From positions 1-63,785 of the IMG/VR virus record IMGVR_UViG_3300042691_005130: a DNA stretch of 63,785 bases. One strand, written 5' to 3'. Both the position numbers and the translations under genes were made by a program. This DNA comes from a virus. Position 1 is the first letter of the stretch, and each line of letters opens with the position of its first letter. The notes below the pieces were generated by a model. The model made no database searches. It was not told the origin of the DNA and saw only the letters and a list, made by a program, of their open reading frames with translations. Below are positions 19,516 through 39,156 of this stretch, one piece after another.

Positions 19516-20744
19516 CCGTTTTCCTTCATGAAAGCGTCGATGGTGTCGCAGACGTAGGTCAGCATCTCCTCTGTCAGCGCCGGTTGTACGCCTAGCCAGA
19601 ACGTGTTGTTCATCACGTAGTCCGTGTTCTCCAGCGGTCCGTGCACACGGTAGTTCTGACCCTTCATGAACGGCTGCTTGATTGCGTTGCCAGCAAACAG
19701 CAGGCGGCAGCCGATAGCGTGGTCTTCCAGATACCGTGTCAGTTTGTCCCGGCTGAACTTGGCTGTCGGGCTGATGGTGATCGGGAACCCGAACCAGCTT
19801 GGGGTAGCGTCTGGGTAAACCGTCGGCAGCCAGAACTGTTCGTAAGTATCCAGCCGCTCCCGCAGGAAGCCGTAGTTCGACCGACGGGCGGAGATGAACT
19901 TGTACAGCTTCTCAAGCTGTGCCACGCCACAGGCGGCCTGCATCTCGGTGATACGCAGGTTGTAGCCCAGATGGGTGTACACGTACTTGTGATCATAGCC
20001 GTGCGGCAGCTCGCCGAACTGCTGATCGAACCGGCGCTTGCAGGTGTTGTTCTGTCCAGGCTCACACCAGCAGTCCCTGCCCCAGTCGCGGAAGGACTCC
20101 ACCAGTCGGGACAGCTTGGTGTTGTTGATGATGACTGCCCCGCCTTCGCCCGTCGTGATGTGATGCGCCGGGAAGAAAGACAGGGTAGCCAGATCACCGA
20201 ACGTGCCGACGTTGCGGCCACGCCAGCGGGAGCCGAGCGCGTCACAGGTATCCTCAATGACCCACAGTTGATAGCGGTCAGCGATCTCCATGATGGCGTC
20301 TATGTTGAACGGATTGCCCAGCGTGTGCGCGATCATGATGGCTTTGGTCTTGCTGGTGATGGCGTCCTCCAGCCTGCGCGTGTCGATGTTCAGGGTGCTG
20401 TTGACATCCAAGAACACCGGCACGGCACCGAACTGAACTATCGGCGCTATGGTGGTAGGGAAGCCGCAGGCGACGCTGATGACTTCATCGCCCTTCTGTA
20501 CCGCACGCTTGCCTAGCGACGGGCTGGTAAGCGCGGAGAAGGCCAGCAGGTTGGCAGAGCTACCAGAGCTGGTGGTGCGTACCGCCTTGCAGCCGAGGAA
20601 CTTGGTCAGCCCCTCTTCCAGTTGCCGGTTGAACGCACCTGCCGTCAACCACCCACGGTCAACGGCTTCGTGCATCAACTCCTTCTCGCGGTCGCCCACC
20701 ACCTGCCCGGAGGCAGGGATGTAAGTCTTGCCGGGTATGAACAT
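19512..20744 (-). CDS. rfbH: RfbH-like CDP-4-keto-6-deoxyglucose 3-dehydrase (DegT/DnrJ fold)
   Basis: A 410-residue PLP/PMP enzyme of the sugar aminotransferase fold. In place of the usual PLP lysine it has histidine (SFFPAHHITTGEGG, H194), the hallmark of the 3-dehydrases RfbH/DdhC and ColD, which remove the C3 hydroxyl of a 4-keto-6-deoxyhexose. Other RfbH-like blocks are PGKTYIPASGQVV at the N-terminus and YDHKYVYTHLGYNLRIT near 250. RfbH needs a reductase partner (E3), which is not seen here and may come from the host. The gene lies directly upstream of the TPP enzyme in one leftward operon. Confidence 0.85.
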   Translation of the reverse strand: MFIPGKTYIPASGQVVGDREKELMHEAVDRGWLTAGAFNRQLEEGLTKFLGCKAVRTTSSGSSANLLAFSALTSPSLGKRAVQKGDEVISVACGFPTTIAPIVQFGAVPVFLDVNSTLNIDTRRLEDAITSKTKAIMIAHTLGNPFNIDAIMEIADRYQLWVIEDTCDALGSRWRGRNVGTFGDLATLSFFPAHHITTGEGGAVIINNTKLSRLVESFRDWGRDCWCEPGQNNTCKRRFDQQFGELPHGYDHKYVYTHLGYNLRITEMQAACGVAQLEKLYKFISARRSNYGFLRERLDTYEQFWLPTVYPDATPSWFGFPITISPTAKFSRDKLTRYLEDHAIGCRLLFAGNAIKQPFMKGQNYRVHGPLENTDYVMNNTFWLGVQPALTEEMLTYVCDTIDAFMKENG

Positions 20745-21509
20745 TTATACCTCTTGTGGTTGTGGTGGTTGAGGCTTCTCTGTCAGAACGCCGTCAAACT
20801 TATGGGTGCCGATATGGCCGAGCTGTGCCCACGGTGCTGCCCACACGGTGCCGCCGCACTTGTCGCGCCAGATCTTGCAGAAGTGATAGTCCTCGGACAG
20901 CAGGCGTTCGCCAATCGGCTCGATGCTGGTGGCGAAGAACTCATGCACACGGTCGTTGCCCATCGCACCGCTCAGATCATTGGTGTCATTGATGTAGGTG
21001 GGCACATGATCTTTGAGCTGCTCGAACACTTCGCGCTTGATCATCATGAAGCCCGTGCCGCCGTTCCAAATCTCTACTGGCTTGTCCAGTTCTACGCGCT
21101 GTTCGTTCTGGTAGTTAACTAGGTTGACCACGAAGGAGCCGCTGTACTTGCGGAGTTCGTGCGGCGGTACGCCTGCGACAGCAGCAGCGTGGACTTGATT
21201 CCAGTTGATTTCTTTTTTCGGGTAGATGCCGCAGATGATCGGCTTGTCAGCCAGCAGCATCGGGAGAACGTCCTGCGGGTTGAAGTGGATATCAGCATCA
21301 ATGAACATCATGTGGGTGTAATCCGTCTTCAGGAACCCGTGGACAAGCGCGTTACGTGCGCGTTGGATCAGGGACTCGTTGAACAGAAAGCTGCAAGCCA
21401 TGTCCACGCGATTGTCCCGCAGGTTGTTCTGCAAGGTCATCAATGACTGCGCGTAATAGCCATAGCAAAGTCCACCGTACATGGGCGACGCGATATATAG
21501 TTTTGCCAC
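20745..21509 (-). CDS. Glycosyltransferase, GT-A fold, paralogue 1
   Basis: A 254-residue protein with an N-terminal IASPMYGG, the arginine-rich helix LIQRARNAL, and a metal-binding DxD (FIDADIHF, D71 and D73). A later acidic block, LLSEDYHFCKIW, may contain the catalytic base region. This layout is common in phage-encoded glycosyltransferases of the GT-A superfamily. It is a clear paralogue of the gene at 24234-24998 (shared GGTGFM, LLSEDYHFC, GIYPKK). The acceptor and donor are unknown; adjacency to the sugar genes suggests use of their product. Confidence 0.78.
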   Translation of the reverse strand: MAKLYIASPMYGGLCYGYYAQSLMTLQNNLRDNRVDMACSFLFNESLIQRARNALVHGFLKTDYTHMMFIDADIHFNPQDVLPMLLADKPIICGIYPKKEINWNQVHAAAVAGVPPHELRKYSGSFVVNLVNYQNEQRVELDKPVEIWNGGTGFMMIKREVFEQLKDHVPTYINDTNDLSGAMGNDRVHEFFATSIEPIGERLLSEDYHFCKIWRDKCGGTVWAAPWAQLGHIGTHKFDGVLTEKPQPPQPQEV

Positions 21510-21518
21510 ATTGCTCTC

Positions 21519-22232
21519 CTAGAAGTTAAAGATCTGTTTTTTTGTCCACTCAAAGCCTGGACGATGCTGTGCCATCCACTCGTTGTTGCCGAGGAATTTC
21601 TCTTTGGTCATGCCGCCGCTGCCATCTGCTGACAGTCGGTAGCTGACACTGTGTCTGCCGGTAGTGCCGCACTTGATCTTGTCCCGCATCAGCGCCGCTT
21701 GAAACGAACGGTCTGATACGACGGGTACATACCAAGCGTGGCTGTGCTTGCGGGCATATTCCGTCTTCACCGCATAGCAGGAGTTGTCCACCAAGTATTG
21801 CTGGTGCGAGTTCGGGTAACAGCCTAGTGATTCGCAGTTGTCATCACAGATCCAGTTGCCGTCGTTGTCTACGATCTTGCGCAGGCTGTACGCCCAGCCC
21901 AGATCATGCTGCTCTATTAGTGTGGTGATGGATTCGATATGGTCAGGGTCGTAGAGGTTATCGTCATCGAGGTAGAAAATCAGGTCTTCACCGACCAAGT
22001 AAGGAGCAGCAGCGTAAACAGGAGCCATAGCATAACCCCCACCCCCGTTGGCAACTGGAAGATAAACAACATCAACGTCACTGCCTTCTGTATTTGCCGA
22101 TACAGCGTCCCAACAATCTTTACCGTGTGCGAAGACATAGTGTCTGGCTCCCCGTGTTTGCGCCTTCACGCTGTCTATAGCCTGCCGGATAGTCGGGCGA
22201 CCTCGTGTGCTGGTGACTACAGCGATGTTCAT
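21519..22232 (-). CDS. Glycosyltransferase family 2-like
   Basis: A 237-residue protein with the GT2 N-terminus AVVTSTRGRPTIRQAIDS and the metal-binding motif FYLDDDNLYDPDH (D89-D91). The C-terminal half carries conserved aromatics and a tail near GMTKEKFLGNN. It would transfer a sugar from a nucleotide donor to an unknown acceptor. It overlaps the preceding gene by four bases and lies nine bases before the next one in the leftward operon. Confidence 0.78.
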   Translation of the reverse strand: MNIAVVTSTRGRPTIRQAIDSVKAQTRGARHYVFAHGKDCWDAVSANTEGSDVDVVYLPVANGGGGYAMAPVYAAAPYLVGEDLIFYLDDDNLYDPDHIESITTLIEQHDLGWAYSLRKIVDNDGNWICDDNCESLGCYPNSHQQYLVDNSCYAVKTEYARKHSHAWYVPVVSDRSFQAALMRDKIKCGTTGRHSVSYRLSADGSGGMTKEKFLGNNEWMAQHRPGFEWTKKQIFNF

Positions 22233-23170
22233 CTCGCCTCCTCAATCAACTTGTACAACTGTTTGATCTCGTGGTCGTTGCTAAATGGGATGGCCTTCTC
22301 TGACCGGATCCATTCGTCGATGCACTGCTGATACTCGCAGTACCGCTCGTACGTCACGCCGCGCAGGTAGCCGTACAGTTCTTCCCAGTTGCCGAAGTCC
22401 GTCGCGTCGATAAAGCACTCACGCGGGATGTGATCGTGGACGTTGGGTGCGCCCCAGTAGATAGGCACGATGCCTGCCAAGAAGGCGTCCAGCATCTTCT
22501 CGCTGATGTAGCCCGTGGCGTTGTCACAGTTCTCGAACGTCAGGGCAAACTTGTAATTGCTGTAGAGATCGATCTTGTTATCTGTCGTGCCCTTGGCGCA
22601 GAAGAAGTGCCGGATGTCCCAGCCTCTGCCGTACAGGTCGAACTCCCACATGGCGTTCTGCTGGAACCAGAGGATGGCTTCTATCCGCTTTAGGTACAGG
22701 CTGTTCGGATGGTCGTAGTTCTTGGCCGTCTGGATCATGCACAGCAGCTTGCGTTTGTTCCAGTCGATGATGGGCTGCGTGCGGCTGCTCCAGTCCACGG
22801 TGAAGTTATGCTTCTCGTAGTTGCCGCGCCCGACCAGCTTGTCATCCCACGTCAACACCTTCATGAACTGATCGTGATAGGCAGCATCCCAGTTCTGCGG
22901 CAGGACAAGCTCTGGTTCGTACAGGATCAGTGCCTTCTTGGCGTTGCCGATCTCTGGCTCTACCTGCGGGCGATCCATGTAGATCACGAAGTCCAGCTCT
23001 GCCGGATCAACCTGGTCAAGCGTGTACATCTCGATGCCGGTGGACTGGCACAGTTTGTACAGCTCTACCCACGGGCGTAGCAGGTTGTGACCGACGTTGC
23101 TGTTCTCGTTCTTGAACAGGAAGCCGTCGCGGGTGATGAACTCGTAGTGGTTATGGACAGCGACCTTCAA
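22229..23170 (-). CDS. Glycosyltransferase family 10 (fucosyltransferase-like)
   Basis: A 313-residue protein. The C-terminal half has the GT10 signature FENCDNATGYISEK (212-225) followed by AFLAGIVPIYWGAP (229-242), which binds the GDP-fucose-type donor in alpha-1,3-fucosyltransferases. The N-terminal acceptor domain is divergent. It is predicted to add a 6-deoxyhexose, or a related sugar, to an unknown glycan. It overlaps its operon neighbours by ATGA-type junctions on both sides. The family is secure by motif; the exact sugar is not. Confidence 0.85.
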   Translation of the reverse strand: MKVAVHNHYEFITRDGFLFKNENSNVGHNLLRPWVELYKLCQSTGIEMYTLDQVDPAELDFVIYMDRPQVEPEIGNAKKALILYEPELVLPQNWDAAYHDQFMKVLTWDDKLVGRGNYEKHNFTVDWSSRTQPIIDWNKRKLLCMIQTAKNYDHPNSLYLKRIEAILWFQQNAMWEFDLYGRGWDIRHFFCAKGTTDNKIDLYSNYKFALTFENCDNATGYISEKMLDAFLAGIVPIYWGAPNVHDHIPRECFIDATDFGNWEELYGYLRGVTYERYCEYQQCIDEWIRSEKAIPFSNDHEIKQLYKLIEEAR

Positions 23171-23337
23171 GGATTCTTCTCCTGATACTCAATGCACCCG
23201 CGTTCACAGCACACGTCGCCAATATGGGGCAGGTGTTTATCAAGCACTTCCAACAGCTTGTACGGTAGCTCCTGACTAGCATGGAATAGGACTGCTACAT
23301 CGCGCAGCTCGCGTATGAGTTCCTTTTTATACTGCAT
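23167..23337 (-). CDS. Small early-operon protein, unknown
   Basis: A 56-residue protein starting at the ATG that overlaps the end of the upstream gene (KSHAV stop). The N-terminal helix QYKKELIRELRDVAVLF is amphipathic, and the C-terminus has three cysteines in DVCCERGCIEY. The longer upstream frame lies within another gene and was not used. No family is recognised. Confidence 0.55.
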   Translation of the reverse strand: MQYKKELIRELRDVAVLFHASQELPYKLLEVLDKHLPHIGDVCCERGCIEYQEKNP

Positions 23338-23533
23338 GGCTCTTCTCCATTTCTTTGCCTGCCTCCATGCCCATCTTGTAGGCATCGTCCCATCCGTTAA
23401 CGTTGACAGATGCCGCATCCCAACCACGGGAAAACGCTTGCCAGTACGAGGACTTCTTGATCGTGTCCCAGTCGTACTCAATGTAGTGCTTGGATTCGTT
23501 CATCCACATAAGCCATGCTTCTTCTTTAGTCAT
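23327..23533 (-). CDS. Small early-operon protein, unknown
   Basis: A 68-residue acidic, aromatic-rich protein (MTKEEAWLMWMNESKHY at the start). It overlaps the upstream gene by four bases and the downstream one by 11, fitting translational coupling within the operon. Function unknown. Confidence 0.6.
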   Translation of the reverse strand: MTKEEAWLMWMNESKHYIEYDWDTIKKSSYWQAFSRGWDAASVNVNGWDDAYKMGMEAGKEMEKSHAV

Positions 23534-23790
23534 AGCGGCTCCCCGTTATCTTCAGCGGCTTTGTTTAGGCGTTCCAATGCTGGCGCACCTCTCTCGCGGA
23601 TGGCGAACGCGCAACTTACCCAAGACGCATCGACTCGTTCACCTTCAGCCTCACACACCTTCGCACACGCCTCGCGCTCCTCTGCTGCGACTAGGTTGGC
23701 AAAGCGTTCAAGCGCGGCGATGCCGTCATGGTCTACCAAACTCCACGCCTCCGCCTCCTTCGCCATGCGGATAATGTCATCTCTGTTCAT
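23530..23790 (-). CDS. Small helical protein of the EREACAKVCE type
   Basis: An 86-residue protein with LERFANLVAAEEREACAKVCE at about residues 27-47 (18 of these recur in a neighbour). The same amphipathic helix with paired cysteines is seen in the genes at 24995-25228, 23787-23987 and 29809-30057. The pattern is frequent in small phage proteins of unknown function. Overlaps both neighbours by four bases. Confidence 0.65.
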   Translation of the reverse strand: MNRDDIIRMAKEAEAWSLVDHDGIAALERFANLVAAEEREACAKVCEAEGERVDASWVSCAFAIRERGAPALERLNKAAEDNGEPL

Positions 23791-23987
23791 TCCTCTCCCC
23801 TTCTGATAACTGCTGCCATGTCGTGCTGCCCTGCTTCTTCACATAGCCGGGCGCACCGCTCGCGCTCTGCCACGGCGATCATCTTGGAGAACTTGCGCAT
23901 CCAAGACATCGCCGCAGAGTCCGGGGCGTAGACCAGTCCCTCATCTTCCGCCGCTCGGTTAGCCATCTCGAATAGTTTGCGGGTCAT
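23787..23987 (-). CDS. Small helical protein with an ERERCARLCEEAG motif
   Basis: A 66-residue protein related in its central helix (AVAERERCARLCEEAG) to the neighbouring small genes. Overlaps both neighbours by four bases in the leftward operon. Function unknown. Confidence 0.62.
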   Translation of the reverse strand: MTRKLFEMANRAAEDEGLVYAPDSAAMSWMRKFSKMIAVAERERCARLCEEAGQHDMAAVIRRGEE

Positions 23988-24223
23988 CCAAACAGCAGGT
24001 GAAACAACTCACGCAAGACAGCAACTACCACTGCGATAACCACGTACATCAGGATCATGATCGCGCCGACATCGAACGGCGAGATGTTCTTGCGGTAGAA
24101 CATTTCCCACCGGCTCTCGCCTTCTATCGGCTGGCCTTCGAGAACGGTCTGGTAGTACTTGGGTACGTAGTGGCTGCCGATCTTTGGCGGCGGCTCTTTG
24201 ATGAACTGTCCATCTCGTAACAT
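23984..24223 (-). CDS. Small membrane protein
   Basis: A 79-residue protein with a basic/proline N-terminus and one membrane segment at about 52-72 (IMILMYVVIAVVVAVLREL). The ATG at 24223 is preferred because AAGGAG lies seven bases upstream and overlaps the stop codon of the preceding glycosyltransferase. A longer in-frame start at 24280 would lie inside that gene. Its position among glycosyltransferases hints at a role at the inner membrane; function unknown. Confidence 0.62.
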   Translation of the reverse strand: MLRDGQFIKEPPPKIGSHYVPKYYQTVLEGQPIEGESRWEMFYRKNISPFDVGAIMILMYVVIAVVVAVLRELFHLLFG

Positions 24224-24233
24224 TTGTTTCTCC

Positions 24234-24998
24234 TTACGTATTGTTTCTTCCTGCCCGCATGAGATCACCCGCGTAGACATGTTGGCCTACGTGACGTAAC
24301 TCAATTGTGGGATCAGCGTAAATTCTACCGCCCTCTTTTTTCCAGAGTTCGCAGAAGTGGTAATCCTCTGACAACAGCAGGCCAAGCTCGGTAATGCTGG
24401 TGCCGAAAAACTCGCGGGTCAGCGGTGCCAAGAACTGGCCGTTATCCTGGATCAGGCTGGTGCGGTACGTTGGTACTTTGAATCGCAGTTCCTTGAACAC
24501 GTTGCGGTGGATCAGCATGAAGCCGGTGCCGCCGTGCAGAACTTCCACCAGCCCGTCATCATTCAGCGGCACAGCGTCGGGATCGCCACGGTCGTCCACC
24601 GCATTCAGTACATACGAGCAGCCGAACTTCTCAATATCCTTCTCGCCCCGCAGCGCGGCGTCACGGATGCGGTTCCAGAACATGAACTTCTTGGGGTAGA
24701 TCCCGCACACCATTTCCTTCTCGTGCTGGAGTAACTTGTAGATGCCGTCGGTCGGGAACCAGATATCGGCATCAATGAACATGAGATAGTCATCCCGCGT
24801 TTCATCAAGGAAGTAGCGGGCGATCTCGTTGCGGGCGCGAGTAATCAGTGCCTCTTTGTTCATGAACTGCCAGCGGGTCTTGATGCCCTTGCTCTCAAGG
24901 AATCCGATGTTACGCACCAGACTATCCACGTACTCCATGAACATGGCACCGCCGTAGGCAGGGGTGCCGATCATGATGGTGGGCTTACCGTCAATCAT
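24234..24998 (-). CDS. Glycosyltransferase, GT-A fold, paralogue 2
   Basis: A 254-residue paralogue of the gene at 20745-21509, of the same length. It has MIGTPAYGG near the start, LITRARNEIARYFL, the DxD motif FIDADIWF, GIYPKKFMFWNRI, GGTGFMLIH and LLLSEDYHFCELW. The pair may act on successive sugars or different acceptors. Overlaps the upstream small gene by four bases. Confidence 0.78.
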   Translation of the reverse strand: MIDGKPTIMIGTPAYGGAMFMEYVDSLVRNIGFLESKGIKTRWQFMNKEALITRARNEIARYFLDETRDDYLMFIDADIWFPTDGIYKLLQHEKEMVCGIYPKKFMFWNRIRDAALRGEKDIEKFGCSYVLNAVDDRGDPDAVPLNDDGLVEVLHGGTGFMLIHRNVFKELRFKVPTYRTSLIQDNGQFLAPLTREFFGTSITELGLLLSEDYHFCELWKKEGGRIYADPTIELRHVGQHVYAGDLMRAGRNNT

Positions 24999-27609: not shown

Positions 27610-27759
27610 TTAATTGCAAGTGGTTGTGCAGTTACCGCCGTAGCAGCATGTGGTGCAGAACGAGCAGCGACCACGGTTGTCACAAAAGGTGTGGGATGTG
27701 CAGCTTGCCCAGACCATGCCTGCTGCGGTCAGCGCCCAGATAGCGATGAGGTATTTCAT
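27610..27759 (-). CDS. Cysteine-rich secreted peptide
   Basis: A 49-residue protein with a strong ribosome-binding site (AAGGAGG, six bases before the ATG). The first 19 residues (MKYLIAIWALTAAGMVWAS) form a signal peptide or lipoprotein leader. The remaining 30 residues contain eight cysteines with glycine and threonine (CTSHTFCDNRGRC..., ending CTTTCN). It begins within the last bases of the nuclease gene (ATGA). Such a disulphide-rich exported peptide between two DNA-recombination genes is unusual. A periplasmic or membrane target is inferred. Confidence 0.65.
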   Translation of the reverse strand: MKYLIAIWALTAAGMVWASCTSHTFCDNRGRCSFCTTCCYGGNCTTTCN

Positions 27760-28628
27760 ACTTCCTCCTTGTAGGATTTGTACTGCTGACAAAATGGAGC
27801 GACCTGACAGAAAGATTCGCATCGTGTCCTGCCGCCTTCTCTGACCTCAATCTGATGATCGGGGAACTTGGTTGCAATCAGCGCCGCTGCTTCATCCTGC
27901 GTGGCGCAAACTTTCTTCGCACGTACACCGCCAGCTTTCATGATGGCGTAGGTGGTGGGCTTCTCCCACATTTCCTCCGGCGTACACTGCGGCATCTCAC
28001 CGCTGACTGCCGAGAAGTTAGCCTCGTTGTGCAGGCGCAATCTGTCTTTCACAAACTGCTCGCGTGTCTCTGCATCCCAGAGCGGGATGTCGATGGTGAC
28101 AATAGGTGCCTGCGGGTAGGTGTCCTTGAGTGCAGCTTCTCTGCGGCTCCAGTCCCGGACGATGCCGATGATCTGTAGGCCAGTAACCGGCAGCGCCTTT
28201 GTCCGTTCGATCAGCCATGCGTACAGGTTCAACTGATCTATCCACTCGGTCTTCTGCTGCTGGACTGCCCAGGCAGAGGTGACTTTGTAGTCAGAGATGA
28301 TGACCGACCCATCTGGCTGGAAGGTTTGCAGGTCGATAGCACCGCTGATACTCCAGCCTTCGAACGTGGTGAACAGGCGTTCCTCGACAACGTGATGCTC
28401 ATCCTTGCCATGTTGCAGGATGTTGTGGACTGCGCTGCCGAACAGACTCCAGACTTGGTCTGCCGCATCGACTTCAATGTCCTCGGCATGACGGCGGCGC
28501 AGGAGTACTAGCTGCGGTGGTGATAGGATTTCGGTGACAGATATCTCACTGTTACCCCGGCTGTAAGTAGGCCGCTGGATCACGTTGATGAACGTCTCAG
28601 GTAGGCCATGCTTGTTGGTGAGTTTCAT
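27756..28628 (-). CDS. PD-(D/E)XK exonuclease, RecB/Cas4-like, with four-cysteine cluster
   Basis: A 290-residue nuclease and first gene of the leftward operon. The core has GSAVH at 64-68, D99 in SGAIDL, DYK at 113-115 and the Q of DQLNLYAW (Q132). C215 (QCTPEEMW) and the trio C270, C274, C280 (RCESFC..FC) could hold an iron-sulfur cluster as in Cas4 and AddB. It probably digests DNA ends to produce strands for the ERF and SSB-like proteins. The family pattern is clear, but substrate polarity is unknown. Confidence 0.8.
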   Translation of the reverse strand: MKLTNKHGLPETFINVIQRPTYSRGNSEISVTEILSPPQLVLLRRRHAEDIEVDAADQVWSLFGSAVHNILQHGKDEHHVVEERLFTTFEGWSISGAIDLQTFQPDGSVIISDYKVTSAWAVQQQKTEWIDQLNLYAWLIERTKALPVTGLQIIGIVRDWSRREAALKDTYPQAPIVTIDIPLWDAETREQFVKDRLRLHNEANFSAVSGEMPQCTPEEMWEKPTTYAIMKAGGVRAKKVCATQDEAAALIATKFPDHQIEVREGGRTRCESFCQVAPFCQQYKSYKEEV

Positions 28629-28722: not shown

Positions 28723-28800
28723 TCATGTAAACGTTGCCATGAGCGGGCGCATCGGGTATCGTTGGGTCGGGTGCTCGGCGGATACTTCACTCTCCTTCAC
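28723..28800 (-). CDS. Possible 25-residue leader peptide
   Basis: A GTG codon at 28800 is preceded by AGGAGG at 28813-28808 with an ideal seven-base gap, and opens a frame of 25 codons (ending RPLMATFT). It lies upstream of the mapped leftward promoter, so it would need its own transcript. The strong ribosome-binding site is the only support; chance cannot be excluded. Confidence 0.28.
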   Translation of the reverse strand: MKESEVSAEHPTQRYPMRPLMATFT

Positions 28801-28866
28801 GTGTGAACCTCCTCTTCTGCCGAATGCCTGGCGACCAGCAGCGAGAGAGACGCTGCTTTTTCCCAG

Positions 28867-28898
28867 CCCCGGCTCTTCCCCTTGCCGGGGTCTTTTTT
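28867..28898 (+). terminator. Intrinsic terminator
   Basis: CCCCGG (28867-28872) pairs with CCGGGG (28885-28890) across a 12-base loop, followed by TCTTTTTT (28891-28898). The T-tract makes it a rightward terminator. It would stop transcription entering the control region from the left, or end a short transcript. Confidence 0.7.
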
Positions 28899-29040
28899 CC
28901 CATACAATAGATCGTTCCTGTATAATTGCCGGTGACGAAAGCGGATGCTGGTGAGTTCCCGGAACCACCACCGGATGAGAGAAAGCGCCAGTGCAGCGAG
29001 TAGTCACCCCCCTTGCATAGATTCTGTTCCTGTCCTATCA

Positions 29041-29152
29041 TGCGCATGTAACTGTGTGCGCAGTGACAGAAATCCAAAGCCCTTAAGTTTTGGTTCTCGC
29101 CCCGAAAGGGAACGTGCGCACACACGGAGAGCCAGAATTTAAGGGTTTTTTT
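29041..29152 (+). ncRNA. Candidate structured leader RNA / attenuator
   Basis: Two complementary pairs interleave: TGTGTGCGCA (29053-29062) with TGCGCACACA (29115-29124), and AAAGCCCTTAA (29076-29086) with TTAAGGGTTTT (29139-29149), the latter running into seven Ts (29146-29152). The order A-B-A'-B' is that of a pseudoknot or a terminator/antiterminator pair. Inside lie CCCGAAAGGG (a GNRA-loop hairpin, 29101-29110) and TGGTTCTC (29091-29098), which pairs with GAGAGCCA (29127-29134) with one G-U. It precedes a small gene at 29186. Function is inferred. Confidence 0.5.
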
Positions 29153-29185
29153 ATGGCCTCCGCAACCCTTGATTAGGACGGGAAC

Positions 29186-29452
29186 GTGGAAGAGCCGACA
29201 AACAGACAGGCCGTGCAGCAATTGCACGAAGCAACGTCTCCAAAGTACGCCGTCTTTGCGCGTTCCCCATCTGGCCTTCGCGCCAACTTTAAATTTCTTC
29301 ACGACTCACTTGAGTCAGCCATAGAACGCTGCCGTGAATATGCTGCGGACAAGGCAGCTCATGGTTACGTGGACTTTACGTATTACGCCGTTGAGATTAA
29401 GCACCGCGTAGGTATTGAGCGCGGCAAGATTGTTGACGAGCCAACGAAGTAA
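29186..29452 (+). CDS. Small protein, unknown
   Basis: An 88-residue protein with GTG start; AGGACGG lies about five bases upstream. It has a helical part, SLESAIERCREYAADKAA (about 40-57), then aromatic strands (YVDFTYYAVEIKHRVG). It sits between two possibly structured RNA regions, with no close neighbour. No family is recognised. Confidence 0.6.
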   Translation: MEEPTNRQAVQQLHEATSPKYAVFARSPSGLRANFKFLHDSLESAIERCREYAADKAAHGYVDFTYYAVEIKHRVGIERGKIVDEPTK

Positions 29453-30057: not shown

Positions 30058-30463
30058 ACAGCGACTCTACGATGCGATGCTTATCAAGGCGTTTCGGCAG
30101 GACAAAACTGTTGGGCAGCTATGGTGGTGGCTCAAGGGATTGGGCATAGAGATACCTGACAAGACTTTGTTGCGGCAGCCACCCACAAGCAAGATGCGCG
30201 TACAGTCTTTTGTGGGCATTTACTTAAAGCCGCTGGCAGATAGGCTGTGGGATACCGACCGCGACAAAGACATTGAAACGCTTAATTGGATGGTTAACTT
30301 GGATAGTCAGCAAACAGGCGGAAGGGAGCGGAACAGTCTGATGCGCCAGTCTAGGATAGACAGGGTGCGGCAAGGACTGTTGCACCACGACCTCGAACGA
30401 CACCACGCAAACAACCAGTGGCATGTCACGAAGGGAAAGATACGTATTGGGAGGAGAAAGTGA
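30050..30463 (+). CDS. Early protein, unknown, basic
   Basis: A 137-residue protein with tryptophan-rich VGQLWWWLKGLGIEI near residue 21 and an arginine/lysine-rich C-terminus (TKGKIRIGRRK). Histidine-rich HHDLERHHANNQWH lies near 112. It overlaps the preceding gene by eight bases and the next by four (GTGA). The basic tail suggests nucleic-acid binding; no family is recognised. Confidence 0.62.
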   Translation: MDKQRLYDAMLIKAFRQDKTVGQLWWWLKGLGIEIPDKTLLRQPPTSKMRVQSFVGIYLKPLADRLWDTDRDKDIETLNWMVNLDSQQTGGRERNSLMRQSRIDRVRQGLLHHDLERHHANNQWHVTKGKIRIGRRK

Positions 30464-31578
30464 TTCAATTTAACCGCTATCGGTCGCCCGACGACCCCGC
30501 AGATCTGCGCGAGGACATCCTTGCGCTGATTGCCGAGATGACTGATGACGCATTCCGCACACGGCTAGCTATGCCCACGGAAACGTTAATCAAAATGGGT
30601 GCGAAACATGGCAGGCATCCTCGGCTCGGTGCTATCGCAGCGCGGTTCGCCTTCTGGGGCGCGGTCGATTGGGATGACATCGACGACATGCTGCCGGAAG
30701 AGCTGCCAAAGAATTTCTGGTACGCGCAGGAAATAGCTGGCTGCATGGGATTCGAGCGAGCTAACCGGCTGTGGCATGTGGAAGAAGATGATTGGTACAC
30801 CCTGCAAGGGTTTGCCGACGACATCGTCGCACCTGGCGCGGGCGCTATCCATGGATACGTCAGCTACCAGCCACCGAACTCTGGCTTCTTCTCCGTTATC
30901 GAGAACATCATCGCCGCGCACATCATCGCCGAGCAGGATGGGTACAACCTGAAGGTAGATCTGTCCGGCAACTGGTGGACATATGAAGAGCCGTTCGAGG
31001 CTATCTTCGAGGACGTTTTTGAATTCTGTAACGGCGGCCTGCCGATCATGCGGTTTCACCACATGCGGCAGCGGTTCTTCGACGCTGATCTTAATCAGGC
31101 GCAAGAGATGATGCGGCGCAAGAAAGGTTGGTACAACGAGGTGTACTTTGCCATCTCTGATTACGCAGGAGCGCCGACCGAGTCTGACGTTGGGACCATT
31201 TTTGTTCGGGGCGGTGACAAGCTAAAGACCGAAACCATCCTGCCGCCTATGCACGTTTACAGGAAAGAGCTGGATTGGTTAAGGCGGCGATGCCGGAGGC
31301 GTGTGCTATTGTCCGACGATCCGCATCTGGCAAGCATTGTGCAAGGGCTTGACTTTCAAATCATCAACCGAGCCAATCAAGTGGAGAACGGATATCACCA
31401 TCATCCGCAAGTGATTCAAACCTCTATTTCAATCATGCACAACTATTTGGCAATGGTCGAAGCCAAGCATAACTTTAGCTGTCCGTCTGCAAACATCGTC
31501 AACGCTGCACAGTGGTCACGCGAGGATGACGATAACTACAGCGTGTCCAATCCTGTCTACCGGTATCTGTTGATATGA
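30460..31578 (+). CDS. Putative glycosyltransferase, alpha-1,6/O-fucosyltransferase-like fold
   Basis: A 372-residue protein started at GTG 30460, which overlaps the previous stop (GTGA) and has GGAG just upstream. Features recall GT23/GT-B fucosyltransferases: an N-terminal-domain loop NSGFFSVIENIIAAHIIAEQ with a strand YNLKVDLSGNWW, then IFVRGGDKLKTET (like the HxRxxDK donor site), RVLLSDDPHL, and a C-terminal SCPSANIVNA resembling the SSN/SSQ loop. The histidine of HxR is phenylalanine here. The overall order of motifs supports the call, but an experiment or structure prediction is needed. Confidence 0.5.
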   Translation: MIQFNRYRSPDDPADLREDILALIAEMTDDAFRTRLAMPTETLIKMGAKHGRHPRLGAIAARFAFWGAVDWDDIDDMLPEELPKNFWYAQEIAGCMGFERANRLWHVEEDDWYTLQGFADDIVAPGAGAIHGYVSYQPPNSGFFSVIENIIAAHIIAEQDGYNLKVDLSGNWWTYEEPFEAIFEDVFEFCNGGLPIMRFHHMRQRFFDADLNQAQEMMRRKKGWYNEVYFAISDYAGAPTESDVGTIFVRGGDKLKTETILPPMHVYRKELDWLRRRCRRRVLLSDDPHLASIVQGLDFQIINRANQVENGYHHHPQVIQTSISIMHNYLAMVEAKHNFSCPSANIVNAAQWSREDDDNYSVSNPVYRYLLI

Positions 31579-32542: not shown

Positions 32543-34030
32543 ATGTCGCTGCAATTACGGGACTATCAAGAGCAAGCTATACAGAAGTTGCGTGAAGGTT
32601 TTGCAAGGGGACACAGAAGTCAGTTGTTATATCTAGGCACAGGCGGTGGCAAGACAGAGATTGCCATCGCCATGTTGGAAGCGGCAAAGAAGAAGGGCAG
32701 CAAAGCCGCGATGATCCTAGACCGGATCGTTCTATGCGATCAGACCAGCCGCCGCCTCGACAAGTACAGCGTGGACCACGGCGTACTGCAAGCAGGTCAC
32801 TGGCGGTATAAGCCCTATGAAAACATCCAAGTCTGCTCTGCTCAAACGCTGGAGAAGCGCGGTTCGTTTCCTGGCCTTGATCTGTTGGTCGTAGATGAGT
32901 GTCACGCGCAGCGCAAGCAGACTATCGAGTTCATCAAGAACAACCCGCACATCAAGGTTGTCGGGCTGTCGGCCTCACCCTTTACGAAGGGTCTAGCTGG
33001 CACATACTCGAATGTCGTATCACCCATCACGACCAAAGAGCTAGTCGAGCAGGGTAGTCTGGTTCCGCTTCGTGTGTTCATCGCCAAAGAAGTTGACATG
33101 GAAGGGGCAAAGAAAGTTGCGGGCGAGTGGAGCCAGGCTGATGCGACCGAGCGCGGCATGAAGATTACCGGCGACGTTGTCACCGAGTGGGCAAAGAAAA
33201 CCCGCGAGATATTTGGTGAGCCGCGCAAGACGGTGGTGTTCGCAGCAGGTGTCGCGCATGGTGCTGATCTTGCAGCCAAGTTTCAGGCGCTTGGTTATAA
33301 CTTTGTCAGTCTGTCCTACAAAGATGACGAGGACTGGAAGCGCGAGGTCATCGAAGACTTTGCCAAGCCCGACAGTAAGATCATCGGCTTGATAGCGTGT
33401 GACATTTTGACCAAAGGATTCGACAACGAGTATGTCCAGATCGGCGTATCTGCTCGGCCATTCTCAAAGTCGTTCTCCTCCCATGTGCAGCAGATGGGCA
33501 GGGTGATGCGTGCCAACGTACACAATCCAGAGGCCAAGCCGTTTGCTGTCTGGTTGGATCACAGCGGCAACTATCTCCGGTTCCGGCAGGATTGGGATGA
33601 GCTGTTCGAGGATGGTGTCAGCAAGCTAGAAGATGGCAAAGAGAAGGCAAAGAAAGAGCCGTCTGAACGACAGAAGAAAGAAAGCAAATGCCCCGTCTGC
33701 GCTGCGCTCTGGCCGTCTGGTAGTGACACCTGCTACAACTGCGGCCACGTTCGTGAGCGCAAGAATCTGGTGACAGAGGTGGATGGCAAGATGGTCGAGC
33801 TGTCTAACGGGATGCCGCGCGAAAGTAAGCAGGACTTCTGGAACCAGATGGTCTGGCTGATGCGTTATCAGGGGTGGTCGAAAGGTCGGGCTAGTCATAC
33901 ATATCGCGACAAGTTTGGGGTCTGGCCGAGAGGTCTGATCGACAACGCACCGGCGATGGTCACGGCAGAAACCAAGCGGTTCATCGATAAGAAACTAAAG
34001 CAGTTTATGAAATCAATCGGGAGGGGTTGA
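32543..34030 (+). CDS. SF2 DEAD/DEAH-like DNA helicase
   Basis: A 495-residue helicase. Motifs in order: Q-like LRDYQEQAI (6-14), Walker A GTGGGKT (32-38), Walker B DECH (118-121), motif III SASPF (about 141-145) and motif VI QQMGRVMR in the C-terminal RecA domain. A four-cysteine zinc ribbon (KCPVC...CYNCGH) follows near residue 392. The ATG at 32543 has AGGAGG upstream. It probably unwinds phage DNA during replication, together with the primase encoded directly after it. Confidence 0.87.
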   Translation: MSLQLRDYQEQAIQKLREGFARGHRSQLLYLGTGGGKTEIAIAMLEAAKKKGSKAAMILDRIVLCDQTSRRLDKYSVDHGVLQAGHWRYKPYENIQVCSAQTLEKRGSFPGLDLLVVDECHAQRKQTIEFIKNNPHIKVVGLSASPFTKGLAGTYSNVVSPITTKELVEQGSLVPLRVFIAKEVDMEGAKKVAGEWSQADATERGMKITGDVVTEWAKKTREIFGEPRKTVVFAAGVAHGADLAAKFQALGYNFVSLSYKDDEDWKREVIEDFAKPDSKIIGLIACDILTKGFDNEYVQIGVSARPFSKSFSSHVQQMGRVMRANVHNPEAKPFAVWLDHSGNYLRFRQDWDELFEDGVSKLEDGKEKAKKEPSERQKKESKCPVCAALWPSGSDTCYNCGHVRERKNLVTEVDGKMVELSNGMPRESKQDFWNQMVWLMRYQGWSKGRASHTYRDKFGVWPRGLIDNAPAMVTAETKRFIDKKLKQFMKSIGRG

Positions 34031-34884
34031 TGGACTTCATTCAGTTTGCCAGATCGCATGGCATCATCATTAACGAGCTGCCAGAGATCGGCGTGTGGAA
34101 GCGGTATCCAACACAGGACCACCCGCGCAAGCGCAACGGCGCGTGCAAATACATGGGTACGCATGGGTTCGTGCAGAACCATGCACTATCTACCGTCACC
34201 AGTTTGTGGAAGCCTGACTCAATCGACCGTCTGAACTTGGATATACGATCCATCGTCATCAGTCAGGCGCAGGCAGATCAGCAGCGTAAGAAGCTGGCGA
34301 CCGAGGCTGTCGGCAAGGCGGTGCGTATGCTGAACGACAGCGGGTACAGCACCCACGAATACCTTGCAAGCAAGGGGTTTGCTGATGAGCAGGGCAGCGT
34401 TCTTCGGATCGACAACAAGCCTGTCCTTCTCATACCGATGAGAGTTGGCAAGAGCCTGGTCGGCGTCCAGCAGATTTGGGAAGATGGCACGAAGAAGTTT
34501 CTGTATGGTCAGCGCACAAGCGGCGCGACTTTTACCTTCGATAACAAGGGCGTAAACATTGTGTGCGAGGGGTATGCGACTGCGCTGTCCGTTCGTGCGG
34601 CCATGAAGCAGTTGAAGCGCAGGTACACACTTCATGTTTGCTTCTCGGCTGGCAACATGGTGCGCGTAGCAGAGGGGCTAGAGCAAGGGCTGGTCATTGC
34701 AGATAACGACGAGTCCGGCACAGGGCAGAAGGCGGCAGAGGAAATAGGCTGGCCCATCTGGATGTCTGATCGTGTCGGCGAGGATGCTAACGACTATCAT
34801 CGTCGGGTTGGATTGTTCGGGTTTAGCCAAAGCCTGACCCAGTCAATGCTCAACATCGGTCTGGCTCGGCATAACGAAGGATAG
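34030..34884 (+). CDS. TOPRIM-domain primase-like protein
   Basis: A 284-residue protein. The N-terminus resembles a phage primase front end (FARSHGI.IN, YPTQDHPRKRNGACKYMG). The TOPRIM core shows VCEGYATALSVRAA (about 178-191; catalytic E), VIADNDESGTGQKAAEE (DxD region) and EDANDYH. It would make RNA primers. The start overlaps the helicase stop (TGATG). It ends convergently with the small-gene array, overlapping 42 bases of the opposing gene; no terminator is evident between them. Confidence 0.8.
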   Translation: MDFIQFARSHGIIINELPEIGVWKRYPTQDHPRKRNGACKYMGTHGFVQNHALSTVTSLWKPDSIDRLNLDIRSIVISQAQADQQRKKLATEAVGKAVRMLNDSGYSTHEYLASKGFADEQGSVLRIDNKPVLLIPMRVGKSLVGVQQIWEDGTKKFLYGQRTSGATFTFDNKGVNIVCEGYATALSVRAAMKQLKRRYTLHVCFSAGNMVRVAEGLEQGLVIADNDESGTGQKAAEEIGWPIWMSDRVGEDANDYHRRVGLFGFSQSLTQSMLNIGLARHNEG

Positions 34885-35043
34885 CCCGCCGCCTGTATGG
34901 GGCTGGATCATGGCAAGCGACTGCATGATTTCCACACCCAGCGCGAGGCAGCGGTCGCCTTCTCCGCTGTAGTCGGTTATCACCCTGACCTGACCCTCGT
35001 CATTCTCGATCAGGTACAGGGTGAACATCTTTTTGCTAGTCAT
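34843..35043 (-). CDS. Small array protein 1 (last of the leftward array)
   Basis: A 66-residue acidic protein with an N-terminal beta hairpin (MFTLYLIENDEGQVRVITD). Its start overlaps the end of the next upstream gene by eight bases. It ends within the primase gene on the other strand. Function unknown. Confidence 0.55.
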   Translation of the reverse strand: MTSKKMFTLYLIENDEGQVRVITDYSGEGDRCLALGVEIMQSLAMIQPHTGGGLSFVMPSQTDVEH

Positions 35044-35239
35044 TGGCGCAGGATAGCACCGTCTGATCTTCTATCAGTTCAATGCCAATTGTTTCCTCGT
35101 TGTAACTCTCAGGCCACACAAAATCGGGTGCGACCGTAAACAGTTCATGCGCGGCGATGTAGGCTGCATCTTCATTGTCTGCATCGACTGTTATGGTTTT
35201 ATAAACCTCTGCTTTGATTGTCACGTTGTAAGTGTTCAC
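35036..35239 (-). CDS. Small array protein 2
   Basis: A 67-residue protein starting at GTG directly after an intact cassette (AGGAGATCAGACG). The sequence VTIKAEVYKTITVDADNEDAA looks like a small beta-alpha fold. Its C-terminus, ELIEDQTVL, is encoded by a decayed copy of the same cassette, suggesting extension of the frame through an old intergenic site. Function unknown. Confidence 0.65.
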   Translation of the reverse strand: MNTYNVTIKAEVYKTITVDADNEDAAYIAAHELFTVAPDFVWPESYNEETIGIELIEDQTVLSCAND

Positions 35240-35253
35240 CGTCTGATCTCCTA

Positions 35254-35592
35254 TTAGGCGTGGGTCATTAGTTCTTCTGGCAGTTCGATCTCTTTGCCGA
35301 GTTTGCTTGCCACATAGCAGCGCATCGCTGCAATGAGTGAAGTGGGGCCGGTTTGAAAGCAGTCGCTTCCGTCATCCATGAAGATGTTGTCAAAGATGAT
35401 TGCTTCCCACATATCCGTGGTTTCCCCGCGCGGTGTGATCTGAATTCGCTCACACTCAATAATCACGCCGCCTTGTTCCCAATCAACGGAAGGTTGAAAG
35501 TAATCCGGCACAGTCCCATCGTCATGTAATGTTCCTTCGCACTTCGCAACTGCCCAATCGAGGGCGGCTCCTGTTAGGTCTGCTGTTCTCAT
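35254..35592 (-). CDS. Small array protein 3
   Basis: A 112-residue protein (MRTADLTGAALDWAVAKCEG at the start). This opening resembles the DUF2591-type phage proteins, which begin with a similar LTGAALDWAVA motif and are about this long. The rest has DYFQPSVDWEQGG. It follows an intact cassette and its stop forms the 5' end of the next one. Biochemical role unknown. Confidence 0.72.
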   Translation of the reverse strand: MRTADLTGAALDWAVAKCEGTLHDDGTVPDYFQPSVDWEQGGVIIECERIQITPRGETTDMWEAIIFDNIFMDDGSDCFQTGPTSLIAAMRCYVASKLGKEIELPEELMTHA

Positions 35593-35606
35593 CGTCTGAT
35601 CTCCTG

Positions 35607-35780
35607 TTAAGTGCGCTCGGTAAGCGTCTGATCTACTAGCTGCGCGTTGCCAGATTGGAGCGCAATCAGGTTGTTGTCTTGGCCGAAGTGATAGTCCACC
35701 TCATCGTGCAAATGTTTCTCTGCGTCTGCGGCGGTGGTTCCTTGTACCCATACGGTACATTCGAATTTGTATAAGTTCAT
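35607..35780 (-). CDS. Small array protein 4
   Basis: A 57-residue protein directly after an intact cassette (ATG at 35780). It begins MNLYKFECTVWVQGTTAADA, similar in layout to array protein 2 (beta strand then TxxA helix). The C-terminal LVDQTLTERT is again encoded by a degenerate cassette (35625-35639). Function unknown. Confidence 0.65.
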   Translation of the reverse strand: MNLYKFECTVWVQGTTAADAEKHLHDEVDYHFGQDNNLIALQSGNAQLVDQTLTERT

Positions 35781-35794
35781 CGTCTGATCTCCTA

Positions 35795-35938
35795 TTAGTT
35801 CTGCTCGGCAGCGCCGCCGATGTAAGCGTCAATCGCGCGGCAGATAAGCCATGAATCAACCTCTGCTACGTTTTCCTCGGCGAGATAGTCGGCAATATAG
35901 GCGGCCATGTCGCGCAGTTCTTTTTCTGTGATGTTCAT
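35795..35938 (-). CDS. Small array protein 5
   Basis: A 47-residue helical acidic protein (MNITEKELRDMAAYIADYL...). Its start lies two bases farther from the cassette than in the other genes (AGGAGATCAGACG-AT-ATG). An upstream in-frame extension would cross the cassette and is rejected. Function unknown. Confidence 0.62.
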   Translation of the reverse strand: MNITEKELRDMAAYIADYLAEENVAEVDSWLICRAIDAYIGGAAEQN

Positions 35939-35951
35939 ATCGTCTGATCTC

Positions 35952-36119
35952 CTATTGTTGGCACTCGGCGCAAACTGCCCGCATTTCAGGGTTTTCTCGC
36001 ACCCATCGCAGGGCGGCGGCTTTGGTATCAAATCTGCGCCAGATAAAATGCCCGCCTTGCCCGTCAGCTACCATCTCGAAGCATTTAATCCAGCCGTATT
36101 CGTTGAATTTCAGTTTCAT
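35952..36119 (-). CDS. Small array protein 6
   Basis: A 55-residue protein starting MKLKFNEYGWIKCFEMVADG, directly after an intact cassette. It has two aromatic beta strands and a helix, TKAAALRWVRENPE, ending in CAECQQ. Its stop codon TAG is part of the following cassette. Function unknown. Confidence 0.63.
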   Translation of the reverse strand: MKLKFNEYGWIKCFEMVADGQGGHFIWRRFDTKAAALRWVRENPEMRAVCAECQQ

Positions 36120-36133
36120 CGTCTGATCTCCTA

Positions 36134-36424
36134 TCAATTCCAAGCAAGTATTGGCAAGCGGGTTGAGCGTTCTCGTATCCAAACCCAGTAGCGGGAAAAT
36201 TCGACGTTACATTTCAGGCCTTCGCCTGTCGCAAGCTCGAATCCTGCGGGCGGCTTTTCTGAATCCGGCACAAGCAAAAGCTGTCCGTTCTGGTCGGCGG
36301 TGCTAGGTTTGAAGTACAAATAAAGCGGCTCTAGGTTTCCTCGGTTTGCTTGTTCCTGCGCGGTTTTCTGTCCGGCTTCAGCGCAAGCGGAAACGATGTC
36401 ATTAAATTGCATCCACGGTTTCAT
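36134..36424 (-). CDS. Small array protein 7
   Basis: A 96-residue protein starting MKPWMQFNDIVSACAEAGQK immediately after an intact cassette; upstream in-frame codons translate the cassette itself (LIGDQT). The C-terminal part, CNVEFSRYWVWIRERSTRLP, is aromatic and basic. Function unknown. Confidence 0.65.
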   Translation of the reverse strand: MKPWMQFNDIVSACAEAGQKTAQEQANRGNLEPLYLYFKPSTADQNGQLLLVPDSEKPPAGFELATGEGLKCNVEFSRYWVWIRERSTRLPILAWN

Positions 36425-36438
36425 CGTCTGATCTCCTA

Positions 36439-36639
36439 TTAGGCGGCGGCTAGTGCGCTGAATGTGCGCGGGGTGGTTTGCTTGATCTCTATCTCGTAGC
36501 CGAGCGCGTCGATGTCGCGCAGGGTGTGAGTCGTTAGCGTCTTGGTTCCGGCTATGCGGGCGAATATCTCGGCGGCAGGGCAAGCGGGGTAGTAAGTGAG
36601 AACCCCATAGTTTTTGTCGGCGCGAATAGTAATTTTCAT
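36439..36639 (-). CDS. Small array protein 8
   Basis: A 66-residue protein (MKITIRADKNYGVLTYYPAC) with a mixed beta/alpha layout. It is preceded by a different initiation sequence (TTCTGATGGAGTTATC), shared with array protein 10. Its TAA stop is the first part of the next cassette. Function unknown. Confidence 0.63.
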   Translation of the reverse strand: MKITIRADKNYGVLTYYPACPAAEIFARIAGTKTLTTHTLRDIDALGYEIEIKQTTPRTFSALAAA

Positions 36640-36652
36640 ATTGATAACTCCA

Positions 36653-36970
36653 TCAGAATTGAACGTAAATTATTGTTCCGGCTTGGGTTCGACCTAAAAC
36701 GGTGGTCTGGTCGTACAAGTAACTTAAAACCTCGGTTTCGGTTTTCTCGTCATCCATACCGCTTACGTCGATTGAATAATCCTCGGCGATGCCGCGCGGC
36801 TCATCCTCTGCCAGGTCGCAACAAAGGGCGAAAACGTCGAGTTCAAAATCAGGGTCTTTGTCCTCTAGCCAATCGTAAATAATGCCGAGCGCGTCATAAG
36901 AAAATTGATTTCCTCTGCCGCAGCGGTGGAAAGCATCGCGGAAGTCATAAACCGATAGCGTGGTTTTCAT
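36653..36970 (-). CDS. Small array protein 9
   Basis: A 105-residue acidic protein (MKTTLSVYDFRDAFHRCGRG), with DYSIDVSGMDDEKTETEV in the middle and a beta-rich C-terminus. The initiation site is of the second cassette type (GGAGCCCGACC-ATG). The length and its DFRDAF start recall small phage proteins of unknown function. Confidence 0.65.
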   Translation of the reverse strand: MKTTLSVYDFRDAFHRCGRGNQFSYDALGIIYDWLEDKDPDFELDVFALCCDLAEDEPRGIAEDYSIDVSGMDDEKTETEVLSYLYDQTTVLGRTQAGTIIYVQF

Positions 36971-36982
36971 GGTCGGGCTCCA

Positions 36983-37593: not shown

Positions 37594-37923
37594 TCAAGCG
37601 GTTTCGAGTGATAGTGCTGCGCGGGCTTCTGCATCCCATTCGCGCAGCACGCCAAGCGGGTCGGCTTCAACGGTATATGCCCAGTCGCAAGCGGCTTCGT
37701 TCTCATCATCAAAAACCGCGCAAGCTTCGTAGTAGCTGCCGAAGTCGTGCGGAAACGATTTGACGGTCATATAACCTGCATCGGGCTCGGGATAGTGGCG
37801 GCGCACTTGTTCGGCGAATAGTCTTGCTTCGCGGCGTTGCGCGGTCGCGTACTGTCCGGTCGGCTCGTTCTGGGTGCAGTCCTCGTCGGTGGGTACAGTT
37901 CCGATAGTGAGATAGTCTTTCAT
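37594..37923 (-). CDS. Small array protein 12
   Basis: A 109-residue acidic protein with an N-terminal DYLTIGTVPTDEDC, the helix REARLFAEQVRRHYP and the central YYEACAVFDDENEAACDWAY. The C-terminal helix is LREWDAEARAAL. Initiation site AAGGAAACCGACC-ATG is of the second cassette type. Function unknown. Confidence 0.65.
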   Translation of the reverse strand: MKDYLTIGTVPTDEDCTQNEPTGQYATAQRREARLFAEQVRRHYPEPDAGYMTVKSFPHDFGSYYEACAVFDDENEAACDWAYTVEADPLGVLREWDAEARAALSLETA

Positions 37924-37934
37924 GGTCGGTTTCC

Positions 37935-38427: not shown

Positions 38428-39156
38428 ATGAGTAGAAAAGCCATAAGAGAACAAGTAAGGGAAACAATACAGAGTAAGGGTATTGAATCTGCCATTAGAT
38501 TAGGTAAGACAGGACTAACAGCTAAACAGAAGAAGTTCGCTGAGGGTATTGTCCTGGAGGGTTTAACCGGTGCGGATAGTTACCGGCAAGCGTACAGCGA
38601 CAAGGGAACATCCAAGACCATCGGGAACAATGCTAGTAGGCTTAAGGCTGATAGCAGAATCCAAATGGAAATAGTCGCGCTGGAACAGGCTAAACAGGTG
38701 GCTGCGTTGCATACCGCTGAAGCTTTGCGCTCGCTTGTAATTTCCTCGCTCACTCAGGCACTCATTGATCCGGAAACTAAACCGGCAACGCGCATACAAG
38801 CGGCAAAAGTATTGGGGCAAGTAACCGAGGTCGCGGCATTCACCGAGCGCAAGGAAATCACACACATTAAAGATAGCGGCGCGATACGTTCGCAGATACT
38901 CGATCAGCTCAAGACTATGATGCTCGGCTCGGCTGATGTGGTCGACGTTGATGCGGATTCGCTGTTGGAAGAATTGTCCGGCCCCGAACCCCACCCTGGG
39001 GCCACCCCCGCCGCGCCAGAATGGGACTCCGGCTCGCATATACATACTAATCAACTCGAACCCTCCCCCCATTTATCGGAAGACCCCCCGTCACCTTCAG
39101 GAACGCATACCCCCCAGGGGGATATTTCTGGAGAAAATGGTGATCTTGCCAAATGA
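38428..39156 (+). CDS. terS: Terminase small subunit
   Basis: A 242-residue DNA-packaging initiator. The N-terminal helix-turn-helix region, LTAKQKKFAEGIVLEGLTGADSYRQAY (two parts, about 29-55), is the classic terminase_2 pattern. A central helical oligomerisation region follows. The last 60 residues are proline/serine-rich and look disordered. It binds packaging-site DNA and hands it to the large subunit. It overlaps the next gene by four bases. Confidence 0.85.
   Translation: MSRKAIREQVRETIQSKGIESAIRLGKTGLTAKQKKFAEGIVLEGLTGADSYRQAYSDKGTSKTIGNNASRLKADSRIQMEIVALEQAKQVAALHTAEALRSLVISSLTQALIDPETKPATRIQAAKVLGQVTEVAAFTERKEITHIKDSGAIRSQILDQLKTMMLGSADVVDVDADSLLEELSGPEPHPGATPAAPEWDSGSHIHTNQLEPSPHLSEDPPSPSGTHTPQGDISGENGDLAK

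Follow-up and report, generated by a model that had tools for sequence, protein, structure and literature searches.

The virus contig IMGVR_UViG_3300042691_005130 of the IMG/VR collection, analysed here at its full length of 63,785 bases (the window), encodes a tailed phage with genes for terminase, portal, helicase, primase and a PD-(D/E)XK exonuclease, and carries an array of small genes joined by copies of one short sequence, referred to below as the AGGAG linker (linker 2). The array belongs to a variable locus, a minus-strand block whose conserved boundaries are two plus-strand genes, those for the primase (Toprim; 34030-34884) and, on the opposite side, the terminase small subunit (38428-39156). 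The gene that closes the locus (34843-35043, minus strand; 66 amino acids) is also conserved and forms a fixed downstream boundary, its start overlapping the stop codon of the final array gene. Identity to the closest named terminases, those of phage DSL-LC04, 023Pt_psg01 and Pelagibacter phage HTVC027P, reaches 57% at most, and a comparison with 50,697 phage records gave no DNA match to the locus or to the right-hand 25 kb. The nearest terminase relatives are laid out differently, and their annotated regions, in which linkers were not looked for, show no recognisable array.

Six exact copies of the 13-base sequence AGGAGATCAGACG, all on the minus strand, separate seven small genes at 35036-36639. 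In the direction of reading they lie at 36425-36437 (between the genes at 36439-36639 and 36134-36424), 36120-36132, 35941-35953, 35781-35793, 35593-35605 and 35240-35252. Each is built of AGGAG and a fixed 8-nucleotide spacer, ATCAGACG, that is more than 95% invariant except at its last base, and the wider consensus reads TA(A/G)(T/C)AGGAGATCAGACGATG(AA). At five of the six junctions the stop codon of the upstream gene (TAA or TGA) ends 1 nucleotide before the linker, and at five the start codon follows directly (four ATG and, after the copy at 35240, one GTG). An earlier note on this sequence, which described six junctions sharing 13 exact bases between stop and start, is correct, with the refinement that at 35941 a TAG stop overlaps the first two bases of the linker and the start codon comes 2 nucleotides later. 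Every copy with no more than one mismatch is confined to 1.4 kb (35060-36437) of the 63.8-kb contig, and matches with up to three mismatches number 30 against 15.7 +/- 4.3 expected, a count reached in 0 of 100 shuffles. Two copies on the minus strand carry a single mismatch, AGAAGATCAGACG at 35060-35072 and AGTAGATCAGACG at 35625-35637. Because they are read in frame as C-terminal coding sequence (...IEDQT... and ...LVDQT..., the linker itself giving VDQT in the latter), they look like fossil junctions, traces of older ones and not working junctions. Fossil linkers at gene ends are common to relatives (L029, L095, L089 and L092), the copy at 35625 recurring as such in L029 and L095.

The seven genes, all on the minus strand, begin with F16 (36439-36639; 66 amino acids), whose start region in the window is GGAGTTATCAAT-ATG and which follows the linker in several relatives. 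Next come F24 (36134-36424; 96 amino acids), F14 (35952-36119; 55) and F04 (35795-35938; 47), none of which matches a known family. F06 (35607-35780; 57 amino acids) reads in frame through one of the fossil linkers at its 3' end, and F08 (35254-35592; 112) belongs to the P22 NinX family (PF10765, E 6e-21). The last, F10 (35036-35239; 67 amino acids), ends in the other fossil and has a weak DpnD/PcfM-like match below the cut-off. NinX, itself of unknown function, is the sole named family in the array of the window, and DUF6878 is the only other, found elsewhere; NCBIfam and PHROGs add nothing on function, and no array gene matches an anti-defence family. The earlier note's suggestion of a part in anti-defence or host take-over is thus far no more than a reasonable guess for small genes exchanged so quickly within one operon. 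A profile-profile comparison of 35 array families gave no convincing link among the six in the window, in keeping with the earlier note's remark that the genes between the linkers are unrelated. A common origin of the array proteins is unsupported, the only links being between F03 and F13 and between the two halves of F01. Two other arrays (L206 and L163) end with F42, a charged protein of about 280 amino acids with repeated KANKEKI-like units and the look of an HNH/homing-endonuclease-associated protein.

The Shine-Dalgarno part of the linker is ordinary and its fixed spacer is not, since AGGAG lies upstream of 21 of the 82 other predicted genes in the window and the spacer upstream of none. 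At none of the 82 do 7 or more of its 8 bases match, the best value (6/8) being that of shuffled sequence; in six of the seven array genes the match is 8/8. The linker might nonetheless be the general ribosome-binding consensus of the host, or an artefact of assembly, given that AGGAG is a normal Shine-Dalgarno sequence and that the data are all metagenome contigs. Against the first of these, all 61 exact copies of the 12-mer in 13 near-complete relative genomes fall in one cluster on one strand. The 18-mer AGGAGATCAGACGATGAA occurs at 71 viral loci, many of them with multiple copies and most of them on contigs already assigned to this phage group, and in 84,980 prokaryote genomes (257 Gb) it produced only 20 isolated single matches. 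As far as sequenced hosts go, the linker is therefore not a host consensus; nor did the scattered single matches of that scan point to a host. Against the second, near-identical phages have the same arrays, which chimeric assemblies would not give: where primases are more than 97.5% identical, array order is unchanged at 40 of 40 adjacencies. We regard either explanation as scarcely credible.

Relatives were collected with the 14-mer TAGGAGATCAGACG and with terminase and helicase protein searches, giving about 230 loci, of which 70 contigs had an array as defined by at least three linker copies. Many loci were fetched by the motif itself; those fetched by terminase or helicase agree with them, though some have no copy or one copy and other start regions. 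The flanking order is constant in the 95 loci with both a primase and a terminase small subunit gene (exonuclease, the protein at 30418, ParB-like protein, helicase, primase, variable locus, terminase small subunit, terminase large subunit, portal), and all linkers in these loci lie on the strand opposite to the flanking genes. In the 70 contigs the arrays are always on one strand, between the conserved primase and terminase. Their contents vary: the genes that follow a linker fall into 68 families, 47 of them recurrent, and 235 junctions hold 156 distinct neighbour pairs.

Alignment of these junctions places the change from one gene to another at the linker. Where the upstream gene is the same and the downstream gene differs (334 distinct pairs), identity is close to 1.0 at linker positions 0-11 and falls to 0.25-0.35 past the first codons. 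In the reciprocal set (271 distinct pairs, same downstream and different upstream genes), it is about 0.25 before the linker and rises abruptly at position 0, to 0.97. Of the bases that flank positions 0-11, that at -1 stays with the upstream gene and that at 12 with the downstream gene, which leaves the 12 bases AGGAGATCAGAC as the exchange tract. Homology blocks defined by BLAST alone show the same boundaries, 458 of 639 block starts (about 72%) and 564 of 755 block ends (75%) in the arrays being at a linker; when all block ends in the locus are counted, 22-31% are at a linker, against 2-3% of random positions.

Clean gains or losses of whole genes, one to three at a time, were found in 24 distinct cases. 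The cleanest of them involves the window and a relative with a 97% identical primase (L089), in which F04 is joined straight to F10 at the junction that corresponds to 35781-35793. The order in the window is F04-F06-F08-F10, and identity in the flanks is 89-96% as far as the 13 bases common to both. Single genes can be 95-98% identical between phages with helicases about 70% identical, and at primase identities of 95-97.5% only 25% of array families are held in common on average. Judged from these comparisons, the junctions are points where whole genes are gained, lost, moved and swapped. The earlier note had proposed recombination at the junctions and a linker in excess of what ribosome binding needs. 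Both proposals are borne out, by the different genes that relatives carry between the same linkers, with breakpoints within the linker, and by the spacer's confinement to the array; gene order varies across the linkers instead of being the same in relatives, and the motif cannot be explained as the usual ribosome-binding consensus.

A second sequence, the CCGACC linker (linker 1; CCGACCATG), has CCGACC directly 5' of ATG and occupies the upstream half of the locus. It is present in the window and in 38 related variable loci. We counted 89 sense copies and 1 antisense copy, all of which precede the first AGGAGATCAGAC; 88 of them start an open frame. The window has copies at 36971-36976 and 37924-37929 (minus strand), which adjoin the ATG codons of genes at 36653-36970 and 37594-37923 (109 amino acids), respectively. 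Homology breaks at this linker in the same pattern as at the AGGAG linker. The Shine-Dalgarno part of the CCGACC linker varies and its spacer is fixed, which again suggests that more than ribosome binding is conserved. The two linkers share C(A/C)GAC(G/C)ATG at the start codon and have largely separate gene pools: among 79 families, 20 occur with the CCGACC linker only, 55 with the AGGAG linker only and 4 with both, where about 40 with both would be expected from random labels in a test that ignores shared descent. The gene at 36653-36970 is one of the four, its homologue in L202 and L092 following a variant of the AGGAG linker. Three other relatives have start regions, GGAGATCACACA (L180), AAGGAGAAGAACA (L212) and AAAGGGGATTGCC (L231), that may represent further lineage-specific linkers.

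These breakpoints bear on how the exchange might occur. In the classical account of phage mosaicism (PMC3029335), random or illegitimate recombination takes place everywhere, and selection leaves those combinations that are in frame and well started. Such joining predicts junctions scattered near gene ends and varied start regions; the same 12 bases recur at the observed junctions, among them a spacer that translation does not need, and those of the second linker are likewise uniform, which makes random joining very unlikely as the explanation here. Site-specific recombination, in which genes would be moved in the manner of integron cassettes by a dedicated enzyme with the linker as its site, would suit the sharp and repeated breakpoints at one short sequence, the many gene orders and the two linkers with nearly separate gene pools. 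We nevertheless hold it to be quite improbable: the linker is 12 bp long, asymmetric and without inverted repeats, so unlike integron cassettes there is nothing resembling attC; the proteins scanned, a subset of those of the contig, include no recognisable integrase or recombinase near the locus; and exchange by way of a common ribosome site requires no enzyme of its own. The "cassette system" of the earlier note is supported as far as gene exchange at the linkers goes; ordinary short-homology recombination would suffice for it, without dedicated machinery.

The reading that we favour, with a probability of roughly 0.74, is that translation-start linkers double as short homologies for recombination within an operon of small accessory genes. 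The variable locus would form a single minus-strand operon in which each gene is preceded by a stop codon, AGGAG, ATCAGACG and a start codon. In mixed infections, or between two copies of one genome, the 12-23 identical bases at every junction would allow recombination there, a phage or host recombinase probably annealing the strands. Whole genes would be inserted, deleted, replaced or reordered with their reading frames and ribosome sites kept, and linker uniformity would be maintained both by selection for well-translated genes and by the repeated recombination. Homology in the linker, rather than a dedicated enzyme, would direct the exchange, and the array genes would presumably be useful as accessory or anti-host functions.

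Several points weigh against this proposal. The stretch of perfect identity that unrelated junctions share usually measures 13-23 bp in the window, with a median of 15 overall, and so falls short of the minimal efficient segment quoted for Red-beta (23-27 bp) and RecA (31-34 bp; PMC3945230); either the events are rare and strongly selected, therefore, or an annealing-proficient enzyme is needed. No annealing protein was identified among the scanned proteins, the only candidate component being the PD-(D/E)XK exonuclease (27756-28628). All of the evidence comes from metagenome contigs, with neither an isolate nor a host, and the spacer could equally be kept for a translational regulator.

This last point leads to the chief rival, in which the linker is mainly a translation-control element that binds a phage or host factor, or makes a special ribosome contact, to co-regulate early genes, recombination being a by-product. 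We regard this as a serious possibility, somewhat short of an even chance. The position and spacing of the linker fit a ribosome site; the spacer is nearly invariant even though AGGAG alone is common elsewhere in the window; both linkers have the same bases next to the start; and the SAS repeats of cluster K mycobacteriophages are alike in layout, with no role in exchange reported in the available portion of their description (PMC3203893). Translation control alone leaves unexplained why homology breaks at the linkers and why linker type is paired with gene pool, and fossil copies persist within coding sequence. A translational role of the spacer may well coexist with recombination, hence the overlap between the confidences that we attach to the two readings. 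A stronger form of the recombination proposal, in which the linkers constitute a dedicated, self-maintaining format for gene exchange with two channels, their own community-wide gene pools and possibly a phage factor that promotes exchange at these 12 bases, seems to us unlikely.

Three known systems resemble the linker array. SAS are 13-bp asymmetric AGGAG repeats that lie a few bases from the starts of non-structural genes of different families, in one orientation; they are conserved beyond the needs of a ribosome site, are not a host sequence, and have an unknown function for which a role in translation was proposed (Pope et al. 2011, PMC3203893). Their copies are scattered across half a genome, some of them in company with ESAS, which carry promoters. 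The linker, too, is a 13-bp AGGAG element a few bases before the starts of unrelated genes, restricted to non-structural genes and one orientation. It differs in its consensus (AGGAGATCAGACG here, GGGATAGGAGCCC in SAS), in its phage, which is not a cluster K mycobacteriophage and has terminases as distant from named phages as given above, in the packing of its copies into one operon, and in the whole-gene exchange shown here at the repeat. The linker junctions, with a stop codon 1 nucleotide before the linker, leave no room for the inverted repeats of ESAS, for which no specific search was made. The PeSLs of T4-type phages, described as "mobile regulatory cassettes", combine an early promoter with a terminator stem-loop (Arbiol et al. 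2010; Comeau et al. 2014, via PMC4503421). They share with the linkers a conserved regulatory sequence at the borders of shuffled small accessory genes that serves as homology; unlike them, the linker is a 12-13 bp stop/Shine-Dalgarno/spacer/start element within an operon, with no promoter or stem-loop, and promoter- and terminator-like sites in the locus occur at chance level only. Lambdoid boundary sequences are short, conserved, located at module borders and proposed to let unrelated modules be exchanged by general recombination (Susskind and Botstein 1978; Clark et al. 2001, via PMC3029335). The linkers likewise put one short sequence, identical on either side, around each exchanged module, but they are found at almost every junction of the locus, at single-gene resolution and in dozens of genomes. 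The linker array is accordingly a variation on lambdoid boundary sequences, T4 PeSLs and cluster K SAS, and by sequence and composition neither an SAS nor a PeSL. In archaeal viruses, small unrelated early genes for anti-defence share one regulatory sequence per virus, which differs between viruses (PMC11065993); that sequence is a transcription promoter with no recombination reported, in contrast to the translation-start linker described here. We found no earlier description in the open-licence literature of ribosome-site linkers associated with phage gene exchange.

Other features of the contig lie outside the locus. The product of 30418-31578 (plus strand), a conserved protein of about 370 amino acids, is encoded next to the ParB-like, helicase and primase genes and has no family by sequence. 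It was considered as a recombinase and rejected, since its AlphaFold model (pLDDT 84) has a fold like that of fucosyltransferases (Foldseek matches to FUT8 and POFUT1, E 7e-7, TM 0.40) and not that of an annealing protein; from its modelled fold it may be a glycosyltransferase, with DNA or a host target as its substrate. A cluster of sugar or glycan genes (16814-24998, minus strand), unusual cargo for a 64-kb phage, encodes a thiamine pyrophosphate (TPP)-dependent enzyme, an aminotransferase, GT2, a fucosyltransferase-like GT10 and two members of phrog_1574. The open reading frame at 28787-29302 (minus strand) is probably spurious: its translation is of low complexity, and relatives lack a full-length homologue. 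Among all 4-base palindromes GGCC is the rarest in the window (157 copies, 0.51 of expected), which suggests restriction avoidance. GATC, as a target of Dam or restriction, was ruled out as the reason for the spacer, its genome-wide frequency (0.85 of expected) showing no strong avoidance or enrichment.

The linker arrays provide a rare clear natural case of phage genomes turning mosaic. Whether mosaicism arises by homologous exchange at boundaries or by random joining and selection has been disputed since the 1970s, and boundary sequences are usually invisible. Here the boundaries are visible at almost every junction of a rapidly changing locus, in dozens of phages, and a second linker serves as an internal replicate, which makes the question testable. 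The linker also offers a search handle, in that every small gene flanked by two copies becomes a candidate accessory gene, and the approximately 70 mostly unknown families found in this way are worth screening.
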